Origin: a bacterium
GTDB taxonomy: Bacteria > Electryoneota > RPQS01
Length of the DNA: 64,000 nucleotides
NCBI GenBank assembly: GCA_036504735.1
Contig: DASXUQ010000005.1
Coordinates: forward strand, 589,377 to 653,376
Direction of reading: 5' to 3'
This document shows positions 9,303 through 43,678 of the stretch, in pieces; position 1 is the first letter of the stretch, and the number at the start of each line of letters is the position of its first letter. The notes below the pieces were generated by a model that searched no databases, was not told the origin of the DNA, and saw nothing but the letters and a program-made list of their open reading frames with translations. Both the position numbers and the translations under genes were made by a program.

Positions 9303-10985
9303 TCAGTAAGCCGGCAGCGGCTTGGACGATTGCACCTTACGATACGCGGGCTCGGGAACCCCGGCCAGCATTTTGCCCGAATTCCCCAAGCCTTCCCACG
9401 TCAAACCCTTGAATGACGGAACAGAATTGCCCATAGCGTCAAAGACATCGGCAGCGGACGCATACTTCCATGGAATTCCGAGCAACTGTGCGAGATCCTG
9501 CCAGATGCTCCATTCATCCCGGGCCTGACCGCGCGGTTCGAAGGGCTTGGCGGTCTTCTGGACGCGGCCTTCGAAATTGGTGTAACTGGCCTCGCGTTCG
9601 GCGGACATGGCCAGCGGAATCACATCGTCCGCAACCGGCACCGTACCGTTTTCATGCGTGCCCAGATATAAAATGTAATCGCAACGCTGATCGAGCTTGG
9701 CCAGTTCCTTCGGGCCCATCAGGCGCGACAGGTCATGATGCACCACAATCAGCACGTCGTAGTCGCCATCCAGCGCGCCGCTTAGAATATCGTCGCCGGA
9801 CATGCCGCCGTTCTTGCCCGAATGGAATCCGAATTCCTCTGCTCCGCGCCGGTTCGGCGTGAGGTCGGCTTTCATCAGGATCTCGTCCTGCTTGCCCGTC
9901 TCCTCTTTGCTCACGTTGATGTCAATCGTGTCCACTTTCAAGGTGTCCACAAACAGACTCTTGAGCAGGAAAAGATCCTCGTTTGACGAGTGCGGGCTGG
10001 CGATGACGGCCACCGATTTCGGCCCGTTTTTGGAAACCGCCGCTTTAATTTTTGCCGCAGCGCGCTGCAGCACAAGATCGACGGTCAGTGCGCCCTGTCC
10101 GTTCGTCTCGCTGCGCGTGTGCGGGGCGGTCAGACGGTCCGGTGCATCGACGGCATGATAACCGTAACGGCCCCGGTCGCACATCCACCACTCATTGACC
10201 ATCCGGTTATAGCGCGGCTTCAGGCGCTGAATCCGCCGCTGCGGATCTTTGTAGCGCCGTTCGATTTCCCAATCGATGTTGATGTTGCAGCCGCGCGAGC
10301 AGCCGGTGCAGACGGACGGTGTGCGCTCCATGTACCACACGCGGCGCTTGAAACGGAAATCCTTATCCGTCAGCGCACCCACCGGACACAGATCCACCAC
10401 GTTGCCGGAGTAATCGTTCTCCAGCCGCTTCCCGGGGGGATTCATCAGTTCCGACTGCATGCCGTGGCCGAAAATGCCCAGTTCATCCACGCCGGCGACT
10501 TCCCGGCAGAAGCGCACACAGCGCGAGCAGAGGACGCACCGTTCGCTGTCCAGCACCACGGTCGGACCCACGTCATGCACCTTGTGCTTGTGGATCTTGT
10601 CCAGCAAATTGACGCGGCTGTCGTGGAGGCCATAACGCATGTAGTAGTTCTGCAGATCGCACTCGCCGGCGTCATCACAGATCGGGCAGTCCAGCGGGTG
10701 ATTCTGCAGCAGGAATTCCAGCGCCGAGGCGCGCAGCGTATGCACCTTCTCGGAAGTGGTGATCACCTTCATGCCGTCGGCGGCCGGAGTATTACACCCC
10801 AGCACGACGCTCGTGCGGCCATTCTGCTCCATCTCTACCTGGCACATGCGGCAGGAGCCGACCACCGTCAGTCCCGGATGGTAGCAATAGGTGGGGATCT
10901 CGATGTTCAGCAGTTTGGCCGCTTCCACGAGATTGGTTCCCGCCGGAACTTCTACCGGTTTACCGTCTATTTCTATCTTGGGCAT
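9303..10985 (-). CDS. nuoG: NADH-quinone oxidoreductase subunit G (short form)
   Basis: Complex I electron-input subunit, 560 residues from the ATG at 10985 (MPKIEIDGKPVEV). In order it has the [2Fe-2S] N1b motif (YCYHPGL...SCRMCQVEM...LGCNTP), the His/Cys-ligated N5 region (HPLDCPICDDAGECDLQ), the N4 motif CVLCSRCVRFC, and a CTGCSRGCN...WWMCDRGRYGY set that fits the additional cluster N7. The molybdopterin-oxidoreductase-like C-terminal part is present but short (about 300 residues, against a total of about 900 for E. coli NuoG). An upstream in-frame start adds 11 residues but does not fit the family. Confidence 0.95.
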   Translation of the reverse strand: MPKIEIDGKPVEVPAGTNLVEAAKLLNIEIPTYCYHPGLTVVGSCRMCQVEMEQNGRTSVVLGCNTPAADGMKVITTSEKVHTLRASALEFLLQNHPLDCPICDDAGECDLQNYYMRYGLHDSRVNLLDKIHKHKVHDVGPTVVLDSERCVLCSRCVRFCREVAGVDELGIFGHGMQSELMNPPGKRLENDYSGNVVDLCPVGALTDKDFRFKRRVWYMERTPSVCTGCSRGCNINIDWEIERRYKDPQRRIQRLKPRYNRMVNEWWMCDRGRYGYHAVDAPDRLTAPHTRSETNGQGALTVDLVLQRAAAKIKAAVSKNGPKSVAVIASPHSSNEDLFLLKSLFVDTLKVDTIDINVSKEETGKQDEILMKADLTPNRRGAEEFGFHSGKNGGMSGDDILSGALDGDYDVLIVVHHDLSRLMGPKELAKLDQRCDYILYLGTHENGTVPVADDVIPLAMSAEREASYTNFEGRVQKTAKPFEPRGQARDEWSIWQDLAQLLGIPWKYASAADVFDAMGNSVPSFKGLTWEGLGNSGKMLAGVPEPAYRKVQSSKPLPAY

Positions 10986-11033
10986 TACCGTTCTTCGATA
11001 AGAATTGCAGGCCGCCACGCGGGCCGCCCTACC

Positions 11034-22549: not shown

Positions 22550-22622
22550 GGGCCAGTAGCTCAGTTGGGAGAGCACCACGTTCGCAACGTGGGGGTCGGC
22601 GGTTCGAGCCCGCTCTGGTCCA
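22550..22622 (+). tRNA. tRNA-Ala (anticodon CGC)
   Basis: Complete cloverleaf of 73 bases. The acceptor stem GGGCCAG pairs with CTGGTCC (one G-U). The D arm contains AGCTCAGTTGGGAGAGC. The anticodon stem CCACG/CGTGG has loop TTCGCAA, giving anticodon CGC for the GCG codon. The T loop is TTCGAGC, the discriminator base is A, and CCA is not encoded. A promoter ends 12 bases upstream, and the SRP RNA follows after 32 bases. Confidence 0.95.
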
Positions 22623-22654
22623 CGTCCGCACTTCTTCGAAGTCTCGGATAATTT

Positions 22655-22781
<127 letters not shown>

Positions 22782-33929: not shown

Positions 33930-34394
33930 CTACACGAGTCTGGAAAGATACGCGAGCACTTCCTCGTTGTGAACGGGAGCGGAGACCGGGTCCCAGATCT
34001 TCTCAATCCGCCCGTTGTCGTCGATCATGAACGACACACGACGCGCACGCACACTCGCTTCATCCGGTTTGTTCGCCACACCATAGGCCCGGGTTACCGT
34101 GCCGCCGGTATCGGCCAACAGCGAAAAAGGCAGCGAGTATTTCTGAGCAAAGCGTTTATGTGATTCCGGCGTATCCGTACTCACACCGAGCACGGCAATT
34201 CCCTGCGCGGCATACTGACTGATGCTGCGAGCGAAATTGACAGCTTCCAAGGTTCAGCCCGGCGTGTCGTCACGCCCGTAGAAATAAAGCAGTACGCGTT
34301 GGCCGTTGTAGTCCGGCAGACGGTGGCGCCTGCCATCACCATCCATCAGATCGAAATCCGGCGCGGGTTGGCCTTCCTGCAAATGAGTGTGCAT
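33930..34394 (-). CDS. bcp: Peroxiredoxin (BCP/PrxQ family) with selenocysteine at the peroxidatic position
   Basis: 155 codons from ATG 34394 with one in-frame UGA at codon 47 (34256-34254). Before it the frame reads MHTHLQEGQPAPDFDL...LLYFYGRDDTPG, and after it TLEAVNFARSISQYAAQG...VSTDTPESHKRF. In the BCP family this site is TPGCT, so the UGA stands exactly for the peroxidatic Cys and is read as Sec. No resolving Cys follows at the usual place, so it works as a one-Sec enzyme. A candidate SECIS hairpin lies at 34206-34229. Termination at the UGA would leave only 46 residues, and a caller starting after it would lose the active site. The gene has its own promoter (34469-34497) and terminator. 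Confidence 0.9.
34206..34229 (-). promoter_or_regulatory. Candidate SECIS element in the peroxiredoxin mRNA
   Basis: The hairpin begins 24 nt after the UGA: CGC, one A-C mismatch, GCAU, an 8-base loop, AUGC, GCG. The loop starts 32 nt after the UGA, inside the known bacterial range of about 16 to 37. The first two loop bases are C and A rather than G, so this is weaker than the SelD element. Confidence 0.5.
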
Positions 34395-38976: not shown

Positions 38977-39954
38977 TCAGTCCTTGAATAGCTCCATCAG
39001 AATCTGCACGGCATTGGACGCGGCCCCTTTGCGCAGATTATCACCCACCGCCCAGAACTGCAGCCAGTGCGGATCATCGCGGTGAATCCGCAGGCGGCTG
39101 ACAAACACATTCTGCTGCCCCGCAATCTCCAGGGGCGTACGGTAATCATTCGCCTGATAGGTCATTCCCGGCATGGCGCTCAGCACCGCTTCAATCTGCC
39201 CGCGTGATGCCGTTCGCTCGCATTGCACCGTTACCGCCGCCGAATGTCCGACGCGCACCGGCACGCGGACCGTCGTAGTGAACACGGTCATCTGTGGCCT
39301 GCCGAGAATCTTCTTCAGCTCCTCGACGACCTTGCGCTCTTCGTCGCACATTCCATCTTCATCGAACGGGCCGATTTGCGGAAACACATTGTGCGCGATC
39401 CGCCTCGGGTAGACCCGCGGTGCATGCGCGCCGTCTTCCAGTTCCGCATCGAGTTCGGCCAGTGCATCCTGTCCCGAACCGGAGACCGATTGGTAGGTGT
39501 CCACGATGGCCGTTTTCAATCCCAGCAGCCTGTCGAGTGCCGCCATCGGCAGCACCACCACACTGGCCGAGCAGTTCGGATTCGACACCAGATTCCGGTG
39601 CGCCGACAGTGTGTCCCCGTTAATTTCGGGAATCACCAGCGGCACCTCCTCGTTCATCCGGAACTCCGCCGAGTGATCGATCACCGTGACTCCCGCCCGG
39701 GTAAACTGCGGAGCCCACTCCCGCGAAATCTGCTTGGACGTCGCAAAAATCGCCGCATCCACACCGTTGGGAACGCCGTCCAGTTTTTCCAGCGGCAGCG
39801 CGCCGCCGTTGAACGCCACCATCTTTCCCGCGGATCCGTCGGAGGCAAAAAGCCGCAACGACGTCAGCGGGATCTGCCACTCGGTCAGGACGTCCAGCGT
39901 GGTCCGTCCCACAAGTCCCGTGGCACCCACAATGGCAAGGCGAATCGGTTTCAA
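38977..39954 (-). CDS. asd: Aspartate-semialdehyde dehydrogenase
   Basis: Second step of the aspartate family pathway (lysine, methionine, threonine and diaminopimelate); 325 residues. It shows the NADP-binding GATGLVGRTTLDVL, the active-site Cys in NPNCSAS, TYQSVSGSGQ and RVPVRVGHSAAV. The start is TTG at 39954 (LKPIRLAIVG) with GGAG upstream; it overlaps the previous gene's stop as TTGA, and a longer frame lacks family support. Confidence 0.95.
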   Translation of the reverse strand: MKPIRLAIVGATGLVGRTTLDVLTEWQIPLTSLRLFASDGSAGKMVAFNGGALPLEKLDGVPNGVDAAIFATSKQISREWAPQFTRAGVTVIDHSAEFRMNEEVPLVIPEINGDTLSAHRNLVSNPNCSASVVVLPMAALDRLLGLKTAIVDTYQSVSGSGQDALAELDAELEDGAHAPRVYPRRIAHNVFPQIGPFDEDGMCDEERKVVEELKKILGRPQMTVFTTTVRVPVRVGHSAAVTVQCERTASRGQIEAVLSAMPGMTYQANDYRTPLEIAGQQNVFVSRLRIHRDDPHWLQFWAVGDNLRKGAASNAVQILMELFKD

Positions 39955-40235
39955 CGGTTTCTCTCTCCGAAAATAATCAGCAGTCCCAGCGCCATAACCG
40001 CAATCGGCCAGATGTCCACACGCTCCAGCCATTCCACGCCGGAATTCTTCCCCAGCCAGATCAGCCCCAGGATCAGCAGCAAGATACCCACAAAAACGCG
40101 AGCCAGACTGTTTCGCGGCCGCCGTACAGGTTCCGTGTCTCCGGCAGCCTCGTGCACGATACGATTCGTCAACGCATCATCAAGCCTGCGCTCGAGATCG
40201 CTCATGCGGTGTTCCAACGATTCCAGATCACTCAT
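39951..40235 (-). CDS. Small membrane protein with LiaF-like transmembrane part
   Basis: 94 residues. The N-terminal 35 residues are charged and heptad-like (SDLESLEHRMSDLERRLDDAL), probably a short coiled coil. Two hydrophobic helices follow (VFVGILLLILGLIWLG and WPIAVMALGLLIIF), a spacing seen in LiaI/LiaF-type membrane domains. Function is unknown. It lies between selD (33 bases) and asd (TTGA overlap). Confidence 0.7.
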   Translation of the reverse strand: MSDLESLEHRMSDLERRLDDALTNRIVHEAAGDTEPVRRPRNSLARVFVGILLLILGLIWLGKNSGVEWLERVDIWPIAVMALGLLIIFGERNR

Positions 40236-40268
40236 GGCATCCGCTCCCGTGATTGGTGAAGATACCCG

Positions 40269-41318
40269 TTAATCGGACAGTCGAATCTTGTGCCCGGCCG
40301 TCACTGACCCCACAACCGCCGCCGCCGTGACGCCGGCCTTGTGTAATTCTTCCACCGCACTGCCCGCCTGCTTGTGCGGCAGTGCAGCCAGTAATCCACC
40401 GGAAGTCTGGGCGTCGTAGAGTAGCCACACCGTGCGTTCATCCGCGCCCACACTCTCCTCAACCAACGCTTCGTAATACCGCTTGTTGGCGAACGTCCCG
40501 CCGGGAAATTTTCCGCTCTCGGCAAGGCTCAGCGCGGCACGGTAGAACGGAAAGTCGCTCAGGCGGAATTCCATACCGACCTTCGACGCCACGGCGATTT
40601 CCGACGCATGCCCAATCAGGCCATTGCCCGTAATGTCCGTGCACGCGTGCACTTCAAAATGGGCAAGGGTCTCTGCCGCGACCTTGTTCAGGGTCTTCAT
40701 TCCCGCAATTGCATCCGTCGCCTCGGCCACAGCCACCGTTTCGTTCTTCAGCGAGGTGGTGATAATCCCCGTGCCCAGCGGCTTGGTGAGAATCAACGCG
40801 TCGCCGACCTTCGCGCCTTCATTGGTCCAGTATTTCCCGGGCTGCACGATACCTGTGACCACCAGGCCGTATTTCGGCTCCTGATCGTCGATGGTATGTC
40901 CGCCGACAATGGCAATGCCTGCTTCCATGGCCTTTTCCGCGCCGCCGCGCAGCACCGCATTCCACAGCTCCGCCGGATATTTGCGCGGAAAGCAGCAGAC
41001 GTTCAGTGCGAACAACGGACGCCCGTTCATCGCGTACACATCGCTCAGGGAATTGGCCGCGGCAATCGCGCCGTAATCGTAGGCGTCATCCACCACCGGC
41101 GTGAAAAAGTCCACCGTCTGCAGCAGCAGCTCACCTGAGGGCAGCCGGTACACCGAGGCATCATCCTTATGCGAAAACCCGACGACGAGGTTCGCATCGG
41201 GATGAACGGGAAGACCGTCGAGAATCCGATCCAGCTCCGCTGGATCCAGTTTCGACGCTCAACCCGCGCAACGCACGAGATGCGTCAGCTTAGTGAGTTC
41301 GTCTTTTGTGTACGCCAT
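40269..41318 (-). CDS. selD: Selenide, water dikinase, itself a selenoprotein (UGA at codon 20)
   Basis: Makes selenophosphate, the selenium donor for selenocysteine; 349 residues. From ATG 41318 the frame reads MAYTKDELTKLTHLVRCAG, then UGA (41261-41259), then ASKLDPAELDRILDGLP. The catalytic motif of E. coli SelD is AGCGCK; here U takes the place of Cys17 and Lys23 that of Lys20. The rest is standard (TVDFFTPVVDD, GGHTIDDQEPKYG, TKPLGTGI, DAQTSGGLLAALP). A perfect SECIS-like stem is at 41228-41246. The 5' part overlaps the end of the upstream slt gene by 29 bases. Without Sec reading, callers begin at a GTG near 41153 and miss the active site. Confidence 0.95.
41228..41246 (-). promoter_or_regulatory. 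SECIS element in the selD mRNA
   Basis: In the transcript GAUCCAGC pairs perfectly with GCUGGAUC around a GGA loop. The loop begins 20 nt after the UGA and has G at its first position, as in known bacterial SECIS elements. A further stem CGUCGA/UCGACG can form around it. Confidence 0.8.
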
Positions 41319-43542
41319 AGGCAGCACGAGGCTTTCGTTGTGGAGCCGGCGATTCCGCCGGCGTGTTCAACTGCAAAGTAGTCACGATGTCCGGATACAA
41401 GCGGCGGTACGCGGCCGCATGCTCGATATTCCGCTTCACATACATCCGGGTTTCGCGATAGGGAATATGCTCGATAAAATCGTCGCGGTCCTGCGAATGG
41501 AATTCGGACGCCCAGGATTGCGCCGCGGACGGACCCGCATTGTACGCGGCAAGGATCAGCACGGAATCGCCGCGGAAATCGGCAAACAGCCGCGAAAGGT
41601 GCGCGACGCCGATCTGCAGATTGTAGTCCGGATCGCGCAGTTTCCGCGCCGCATAGCCGATGCCGAGGCTGCGGCATTCCATGTACGCCGTTTTGGGCAT
41701 AAGCTGCATCAGTCCCGTCGCCCCTGCCGGGCTGACAATGCCTTCTTCAAAATGGCTTTCCTGGCAGATCAGGCCAAATACAAAATAGGGGTCGAGATGG
41801 TACTGCGAGGCCAGCCGGACGATTTGCGGATCGAAGTCCAGCGGGTAGGAGACCGCATTGAACGCCGCCGGGCGCGAGCCTGCGGTGCGAAGATACGTTC
41901 CCAGTTCCGTAAGCACCACCCGCCACGCCGCCATGCGCTGCCCCTGCCATAGCAGAAACTGCGCCTTCCACCAGGGCAGTCCGTTCGCTTCCGGCATCTC
42001 TTTGATAGCCCACGGCAATTCCCGCAGCGAAAACTCCGGAATGCGCATGGCGGCCAGCAGCGCGAACTTCTTGCAATGCTCACCGCCCGCTTCCCACACA
42101 TCGTCGAGACTCGGACAGGCCAGAGGATGCTGCTCGATCACTACGGAGTCCGGCTTTACAGGTGCAATAATCGCGTTGTAGGAATACGGGAAGCGGCTCT
42201 GCAGCAGTGCCCAGTTCTGCCGGGCTTCCGCTTTGTGCCCTGCCTTGGTCGCGGAGCGCGCCAGCCAGTAGAGAGCCGCCGGAGCATAATCGGCATTCTC
42301 GTTGTAATCGTACAGACTCTGGTATGCCTTCTCCGCCTCGGCGAAATGCCCCCCGTCCCACAGGGCCCGGCCCAGTTTCCACAGGCAGTCTGCCTCTACC
42401 CCGGTGCCTTTGCTGACCGTCTGCCAGTGCTGATACGTATTTACCGCTTCCTGCGGGCGATTACGGTCCAGTTGCAGCGTTCCCAGCAAATCCAGCGCCT
42501 TGCCGGCAATGTCCAAGTCTCCGGTCTGGCTTCCGGCCTCGGTCAATGCCGGAATCGCTTCGGCGTCCCGGTCAATCAGGTAAGCCGAGCGTCCAAGATA
42601 GTAGTTTGCCTTATAGCGAAATTCGCTCTGCGGAAAACTGGTCAGAAACGCCTGAAGCGTCTCGATAGCATCACGGTGGTGGGAGAGCGCATTCTCGAAC
42701 CGGCCCTTGTAAAACCTCAGCACCTCTTCGATCTGCCGCGGCTGGATGCTCTTCAATTCCCGTTCGATGCGTTCCAGCCCCAGCGCGTACTGTTTGCGCT
42801 GATCCATGGCGCCGAATTCGCGTTCCCGTTCATCGGATGTTTCCATCCGGGGGTTGTGCCCGAACCGCTTCGCGTAACCGTCGAGCAAGGTGCGAACCCG
42901 GCTGCCCTCCCCGCTCAACGGGGCAAGGACATAGGCCCTCCAGAGCGCGTCCACCGCCTCGTCGTGCCTCCCCAGCATGGCCAGAGTCTGACCGCGCACG
43001 AATTCGATATGCTGCCGGTCGTCCGTATCGGCGCGAAACCGGCTGTACTGCACCGTATGGCCGAGGCAATCGTCCAGCATGCCCTTTTCGAACTCATGAT
43101 CGGCAAGCTGGTAGAGTGCATCCGGACACAGCGCCGACGTCGTATCGTCCGCCAGTTTTTTCCACTGTTCCATCGCCAACGCGTCCTGCCCGGCGTGGTT
43201 CAGCGCGTCGGCTCGCAGCCAAAGCGCATAATCAGCCAGATTCGCCGGCACTCCCAGATCCAGAAACACCGGCACGCTGCCGTAGTCTCCGCCCGAAGAA
43301 GCCCGCCACGCCAGCAGAAAGTTCGCCATCTGTTCCGCGCAGCCACGGCCTTCGCCTCCCACGTCCATCAGAGTATCGTGCGCCGCCTTGGCTTCGCCGC
43401 TTTCCACCAGACTCCAGTATGTGGCAAAGCGGGCGGAATCCTCAGAAAGAAAACCGCCGAAACAGACTCCGGCATGGCTAAGAGTGGTAACCAGCAGCAG
43501 AAAAGCGGTAACGCCCAGCGGGCGGAAGATCCAGCGTTGCAT
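41290..43542 (-). CDS. slt: Soluble lytic murein transglycosylase with TPR-type repeats
   Basis: Periplasmic peptidoglycan lyase, 750 residues from ATG 43542. The signal peptide (RPLGVTAFLLLVTTLSHAG) is followed by a long helical solenoid with TPR-like repeats (about residues 60-520) and a C-terminal SLT domain. The catalytic Glu is in LICQESHF, with SPAGATGLMQLMP and AAYNAGPSAA nearby. The tail is basic. The length and build match Slt70-type enzymes. The 3' end overlaps the start of selD by 29 bases. Confidence 0.9.
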   Translation of the reverse strand: MQRWIFRPLGVTAFLLLVTTLSHAGVCFGGFLSEDSARFATYWSLVESGEAKAAHDTLMDVGGEGRGCAEQMANFLLAWRASSGGDYGSVPVFLDLGVPANLADYALWLRADALNHAGQDALAMEQWKKLADDTTSALCPDALYQLADHEFEKGMLDDCLGHTVQYSRFRADTDDRQHIEFVRGQTLAMLGRHDEAVDALWRAYVLAPLSGEGSRVRTLLDGYAKRFGHNPRMETSDEREREFGAMDQRKQYALGLERIERELKSIQPRQIEEVLRFYKGRFENALSHHRDAIETLQAFLTSFPQSEFRYKANYYLGRSAYLIDRDAEAIPALTEAGSQTGDLDIAGKALDLLGTLQLDRNRPQEAVNTYQHWQTVSKGTGVEADCLWKLGRALWDGGHFAEAEKAYQSLYDYNENADYAPAALYWLARSATKAGHKAEARQNWALLQSRFPYSYNAIIAPVKPDSVVIEQHPLACPSLDDVWEAGGEHCKKFALLAAMRIPEFSLRELPWAIKEMPEANGLPWWKAQFLLWQGQRMAAWRVVLTELGTYLRTAGSRPAAFNAVSYPLDFDPQIVRLASQYHLDPYFVFGLICQESHFEEGIVSPAGATGLMQLMPKTAYMECRSLGIGYAARKLRDPDYNLQIGVAHLSRLFADFRGDSVLILAAYNAGPSAAQSWASEFHSQDRDDFIEHIPYRETRMYVKRNIEHAAAYRRLYPDIVTTLQLNTPAESPAPQRKPRAAYGVHKRRTH

Positions 43543-43649
43543 GACTACTAAAGTACGGATTTGCCAAGAGAATTTCAAATGCCGACCGTGTTTATGGTGC
43601 GCTAAAGTAGTGAGCGGGAAGGGATATTCTCTTATGTGGAGATAGACAC

Positions 43650-43678
43650 TTGAAAGTTCCGTCAAGAATGGTTATTTT
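43650..43678 (+). promoter_or_regulatory. Promoter of the OB-fold/PorV/HhH operon
   Basis: TTGAAA (43650-43655), a 17-bp spacer, TATTTT (43673-43678), about 55 bases before the ATG at 43733. It sits in the 190-base divergent gap (43543-43732) shared with slt. Confidence 0.65.

Follow-up and report, generated by a model that had tools for sequence, protein, structure and literature searches.

The question raised by this locus is whether an in-frame UGA near the start of a selD gene is read as selenocysteine (Sec), so that SelD would itself be a selenoprotein masked from standard annotation, as an earlier note on this DNA had claimed. The gene was analyzed within its window (the whole 64,000-nt stretch of bacterial DNA) and in comparison with related genomes; the features are collected in Table 1. 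On the minus strand, frame 41318-40269 runs from ATG to TAA with one internal TGA at 41261-41259. With UGA read as Sec, it gives a protein of 349 residues with the N-terminus MAYTKDELTKLTHLVRCAG-U-ASKLDPAELD, and the motif around Sec is LVRCAG-U-ASKLDP. Under the standard code the ORF shrinks to 40269-41153 (GTG start, 294 aa) and residues 1-55 are missing, which is exactly the truncated call from 41153, short of about 55 residues, that had been predicted. The SelD assignment was made with the NCBI equivalog model TIGR00476 (cut-off 125 bits), which matched with 351.6 bits (E 3.6e-105), residues 10-317 lying on profile positions 1-310 of 311; because this match is nearly full-length, a chance origin of the extended frame is excluded. 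The N-terminal (PF00586) and C-terminal (PF02769) AIRS domains both scored above their cut-offs. U20 and K23 of the sequence CAGUASK align to the equivalent loop of PDB 2yye, with residue 20 opposite the Cys of that solved structure, which bears out the proposed SelD N-terminus with UGA in place of the catalytic Cys (RCAG-U-ASKLDP). Upstream of selD is a lytic transglycosylase gene (41290-43665), whose last 29 bases overlap selD from its start codon on. Judged by eye, the order selD, small membrane protein, aspartate-semialdehyde dehydrogenase (window positions 38977-41318) appears to be kept in a family relative (L104).

Table 1. Features of the selD locus, the Bcp gene and the Sec decoding genes. 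Positions are those of the window unless contig C5, the contig that carries selD, is named.
Feature	Position	Strand	Basis or remark
selD, selenide water dikinase, predicted Sec-type, 349 aa, Sec as residue 20	40269..41318	-	profile and structure alignment
In-frame UGA (predicted Sec codon) replacing the catalytic Cys, motif CAG-U-ASK	41259..41261	-	codon alignment of relatives
Bacterial SECIS-like hairpin	41206..41258	-	folding and recurrence in relatives
Inner 8-bp stem of the selD hairpin, GAUCCAGC/GCUGGAUC	41239-41246 pairing with 41228-41235	-	folding
Apical loop GGA of the selD hairpin	41236-41238	-	starts 21 nt past the UGA
Small membrane protein, outside the Sec mechanism	39951..40235	-	follows selD directly; weak LiaF-TM similarity under the Pfam cut-off
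Bcp-type peroxiredoxin, UGA at 34254-34256 for the peroxidatic Cys (TPG-U-T)	33930..34394	-	alignment
selC, tRNA-Sec, anticodon UCA	C5 141024-141117	-	tRNA search
SelB	C5 152283-154133		362 bits, cut-off 242.25
SelA	C5 158663-160009		524 bits, cut-off 267.9

Results of the alignment with SelD relatives, a check that had been suggested together with the claim, showed that among the 79 named relatives alignable at codon 20, TGA stands there in 72 and TGC or TGT in 7. A codon-by-codon alignment placed TGA at exactly codon 20 in all eight untruncated relatives from the same family or order, and the UGA is kept in family and order relatives at 57 to 75% identity as well as in many phyla. In a set of 60 genomes ranked by relatedness, a SelD containing a single internal TGA was present throughout the family, order and phylum; it was reported for 33 of 39 same-phylum genomes (codon position checked in 8), and the sole family member without a TGA in SelD, G003, has its SelD cut at residue 28 by a contig end. 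As independent assemblies share the TGA at codon 20, a base-calling error at 41259-41261 is very unlikely. Within residues 1-19, the differences at codon positions 1, 2 and 3 numbered 6, 0 and 47 in 95 codon comparisons, which were drawn from five aligned rows, two of them (L018 and L101) identical in sequence. This pattern indicates that the stretch upstream of the UGA is translated in the selD frame, and the 19 codons ahead of the TGA are, to judge from their differences among relatives, under strong protein constraint (purifying selection).

A bacterial SECIS element is recognized as a hairpin just past the UGA with a G starting its apical loop, and both were found in selD. The numerical rule of bSECISearch sets the loop at 3-14 nt and its distance from the UGA at 16-37 nt. 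Folding of 60 nt around the selD UGA gave -33.4 kcal/mol with a z-score of -4.37, and none of 200 shuffled sequences was equally stable. The inner hairpin with a 3-nt loop starting with G (GGA or GGT) recurs in eight selD relatives; the outer part is kept less than the inner stem, with 12-16 of the 19 window pairs retained in relatives. The mean z-score of the downstream fold was -1.37 in the 72 TGA-type relatives vs. +0.47 in the 7 Cys-type ones, a contrast that is thin since six of these seven Cys-type genes come from one genus (Bhargavaea).

Instead of a genome devoid of Sec translation genes, which would have spoken against the claim, the search for sel genes found selA, selB and selC on the contig of selD itself, all inside 19 kb and about 470 kb from selD. 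Results for the phylum were similar: 31 of 39 genomes have SelD, SelA and selC, and none of the three was detected in 3 (G013, G035, and G036), while one or two are missing in the remaining 5, of which 4 are under 90% completeness. The few genomes with SelD but no detected SelA or selC, or with SelA but no SelD, are mostly incomplete assemblies. ARAGORN identified tRNA-Sec (UCA) in all 30 loci examined (L137-L166). By Fisher's test over the 39 phylum genomes, SelD was associated with selC (p 0.002) and SelA with selC (p 3.6e-5), p-values that overstate the independent evidence because the genomes are related.

Three other explanations of the selD UGA were weighed. The UGA could be a nonsense mutation, leaving a selD pseudogene or a gene from which only the shortened 294-aa protein starting at 41153 is made, and a standard gene caller would indeed yield just this short ORF. 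Such a mutation is refuted by the TGA at the equivalent codon in dozens of relatives and by the strong protein constraint upstream of it, and the short form would be devoid of the loop with the catalytic Sec/Cys and Lys; we consider this explanation extremely improbable. Still less credit can be given to a sequencing or assembly error that turned a true TGC or TGT into TGA. Only one base change separates these codons, yet the independent assemblies of the family all have TGA, and Cys-type SelD genes are not followed by the hairpin of the UGA-type relatives.

A genome-wide reassignment of UGA, for instance to Trp, in place of recoding site by site, would account for read-through of the codon in selD and for nothing beyond that. 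It is refuted by the many ORFs of the window that end in TGA at positions fitting their neighbors; the selD site corresponds to Cys, not Trp, and selA, selB and selC are present. Its probability is as negligible as that of a sequence error. The full-length match, the conserved TGA, the constraint upstream of it, the hairpin and the sel genes thus bear out the view that this SelD is itself a selenoprotein, and this selD is almost certainly a conventional bacterial one with selenocysteine as its predicted catalytic residue.

The sequence provides the selD gene, the position and conservation of its UGA, the hairpin and selA, selB and selC in the same genome; for Sec decoding at the UGA and for the activity of the enzyme we rely on established knowledge of SelD and of Sec decoding. 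On this basis, the product of selC would be charged by SerRS and then converted by SelA to Sec-tRNA(Sec). SelB carrying this tRNA would bind the hairpin just downstream of the selD UGA, and ribosomes that meet the UGA at codon 20 of the mRNA would insert Sec without terminating. The resulting SelD would use selenide and ATP to form selenophosphate, which SelA would require for making Sec. SelD would in this way be both supplier and customer of the Sec pathway.

The earlier note had also counted two independent UGA sites in the window as support for a working Sec system, the second one being in a Bcp-type peroxiredoxin. This argument holds in that the Bcp UGA falls exactly on the peroxidatic Cys, a position which a random nonsense change would hit in one of 154 codons; the exact replacement argues for Sec. 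It is weakened by the close phylum relatives, 11 of which have Cys at this position in the alignment, and by the lack of a clear SECIS hairpin, as the minimum-energy fold downstream of the UGA is weak (z +1.5). The Sec system is thus better shown by the sel genes than by the two UGA sites. Among 12 matches of the genome to PF00578 (AhpC/TSA), the window Bcp alone has an internal TGA. Peroxiredoxins with Sec are a recognized family of bacterial selenoproteins, in which Cys has been converted to Sec repeatedly (PMC1794560). The window Bcp resembles these Sec-containing Bcp and peroxiredoxin proteins in that it is an AhpC-TSA protein with UGA in the position of the peroxidatic Cys, and differs from them in its Cys-containing closest phylum relatives and its weak fold past the UGA. 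Taken together, we regard the window Bcp as a probable selenoprotein, and its UGA possibly reflects a lineage-specific Cys-to-Sec change.

Of the single families searched in the genome, UGA-containing proteins were detected for SelD and Bcp only. The genome has no ybbB (TIGR03167), and no internal UGA was observed in its PF01521 HesB-like or PF02627 AhpD-like members. A Sec-type formate dehydrogenase was not found, the sole PF00384 match being a NuoG-type protein (9303-11033, minus strand) with no internal stop. It was proposed earlier that SelD can help to maintain the Sec trait where FdhA is lacking (PMC1794560). As neither ybbB nor a Sec-type formate dehydrogenase is there to justify Sec decoding, one could imagine that this lineage keeps it largely for SelD and very few others, here a Bcp whose Cys would have changed to Sec recently, in an almost self-serving pathway; we hold this to be rather unlikely.

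Sec-type SelD proteins have been known for decades. Among the selenoprotein families of bacteria theirs is one of the two most common, with 38 members (PMC1794560), and in a reference set about 19% of the SelD genes from prokaryotes have Sec, always at this catalytic position (PMC4561486). The window SelD shares with Sec-type SelD/SPS2 (TIGR00476; 2yye/2zod) the length, fold family, catalytic loop and Sec/Cys position, as well as the downstream hairpin and co-occurrence with selABC. There is no substantial difference, and identity to the nearest named relatives is 69-70%. The window selD is therefore an ordinary one, inside a known kind, and adds little to known biology; it is a clean case of a gene truncated by standard annotation.

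A study of the phylum KSB1 described selA, selB and selD, reported that selC was missing and referred to incorporation independent of selC (PMC9012183). The window's genome shares its GTDB family with G009. The latter is NCBI record RPQS01 (exact match of L019 to L099), named candidate division KSB1, and this MAG carries tRNA-Sec (L164). With the window's genome counted, 32 of the 39 genomes from this GTDB phylum carry tRNA-Sec, so no selC-independent route is needed. Contrary to the published KSB1 statement (PMC9012183), selC is thus present in the lineage, which is a modest addition. The selABCD set is hereby documented as complete in a lineage that is uncultured and near to a named KSB1 MAG.

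Two further SelD matches (G016 C475:5322-6323 and G039 C74:445-1446) lie in long open frames of 738 and 748 aa without UGA; these are likely to be known NADH dehydrogenase-SelD(Cys) fusions. G016 holds a separate Sec-type SelD besides its long frame. Elsewhere in the window, a bacterial small SRP RNA (22670-22769, plus strand) lies beside a tRNA-Ala (22550-22623).
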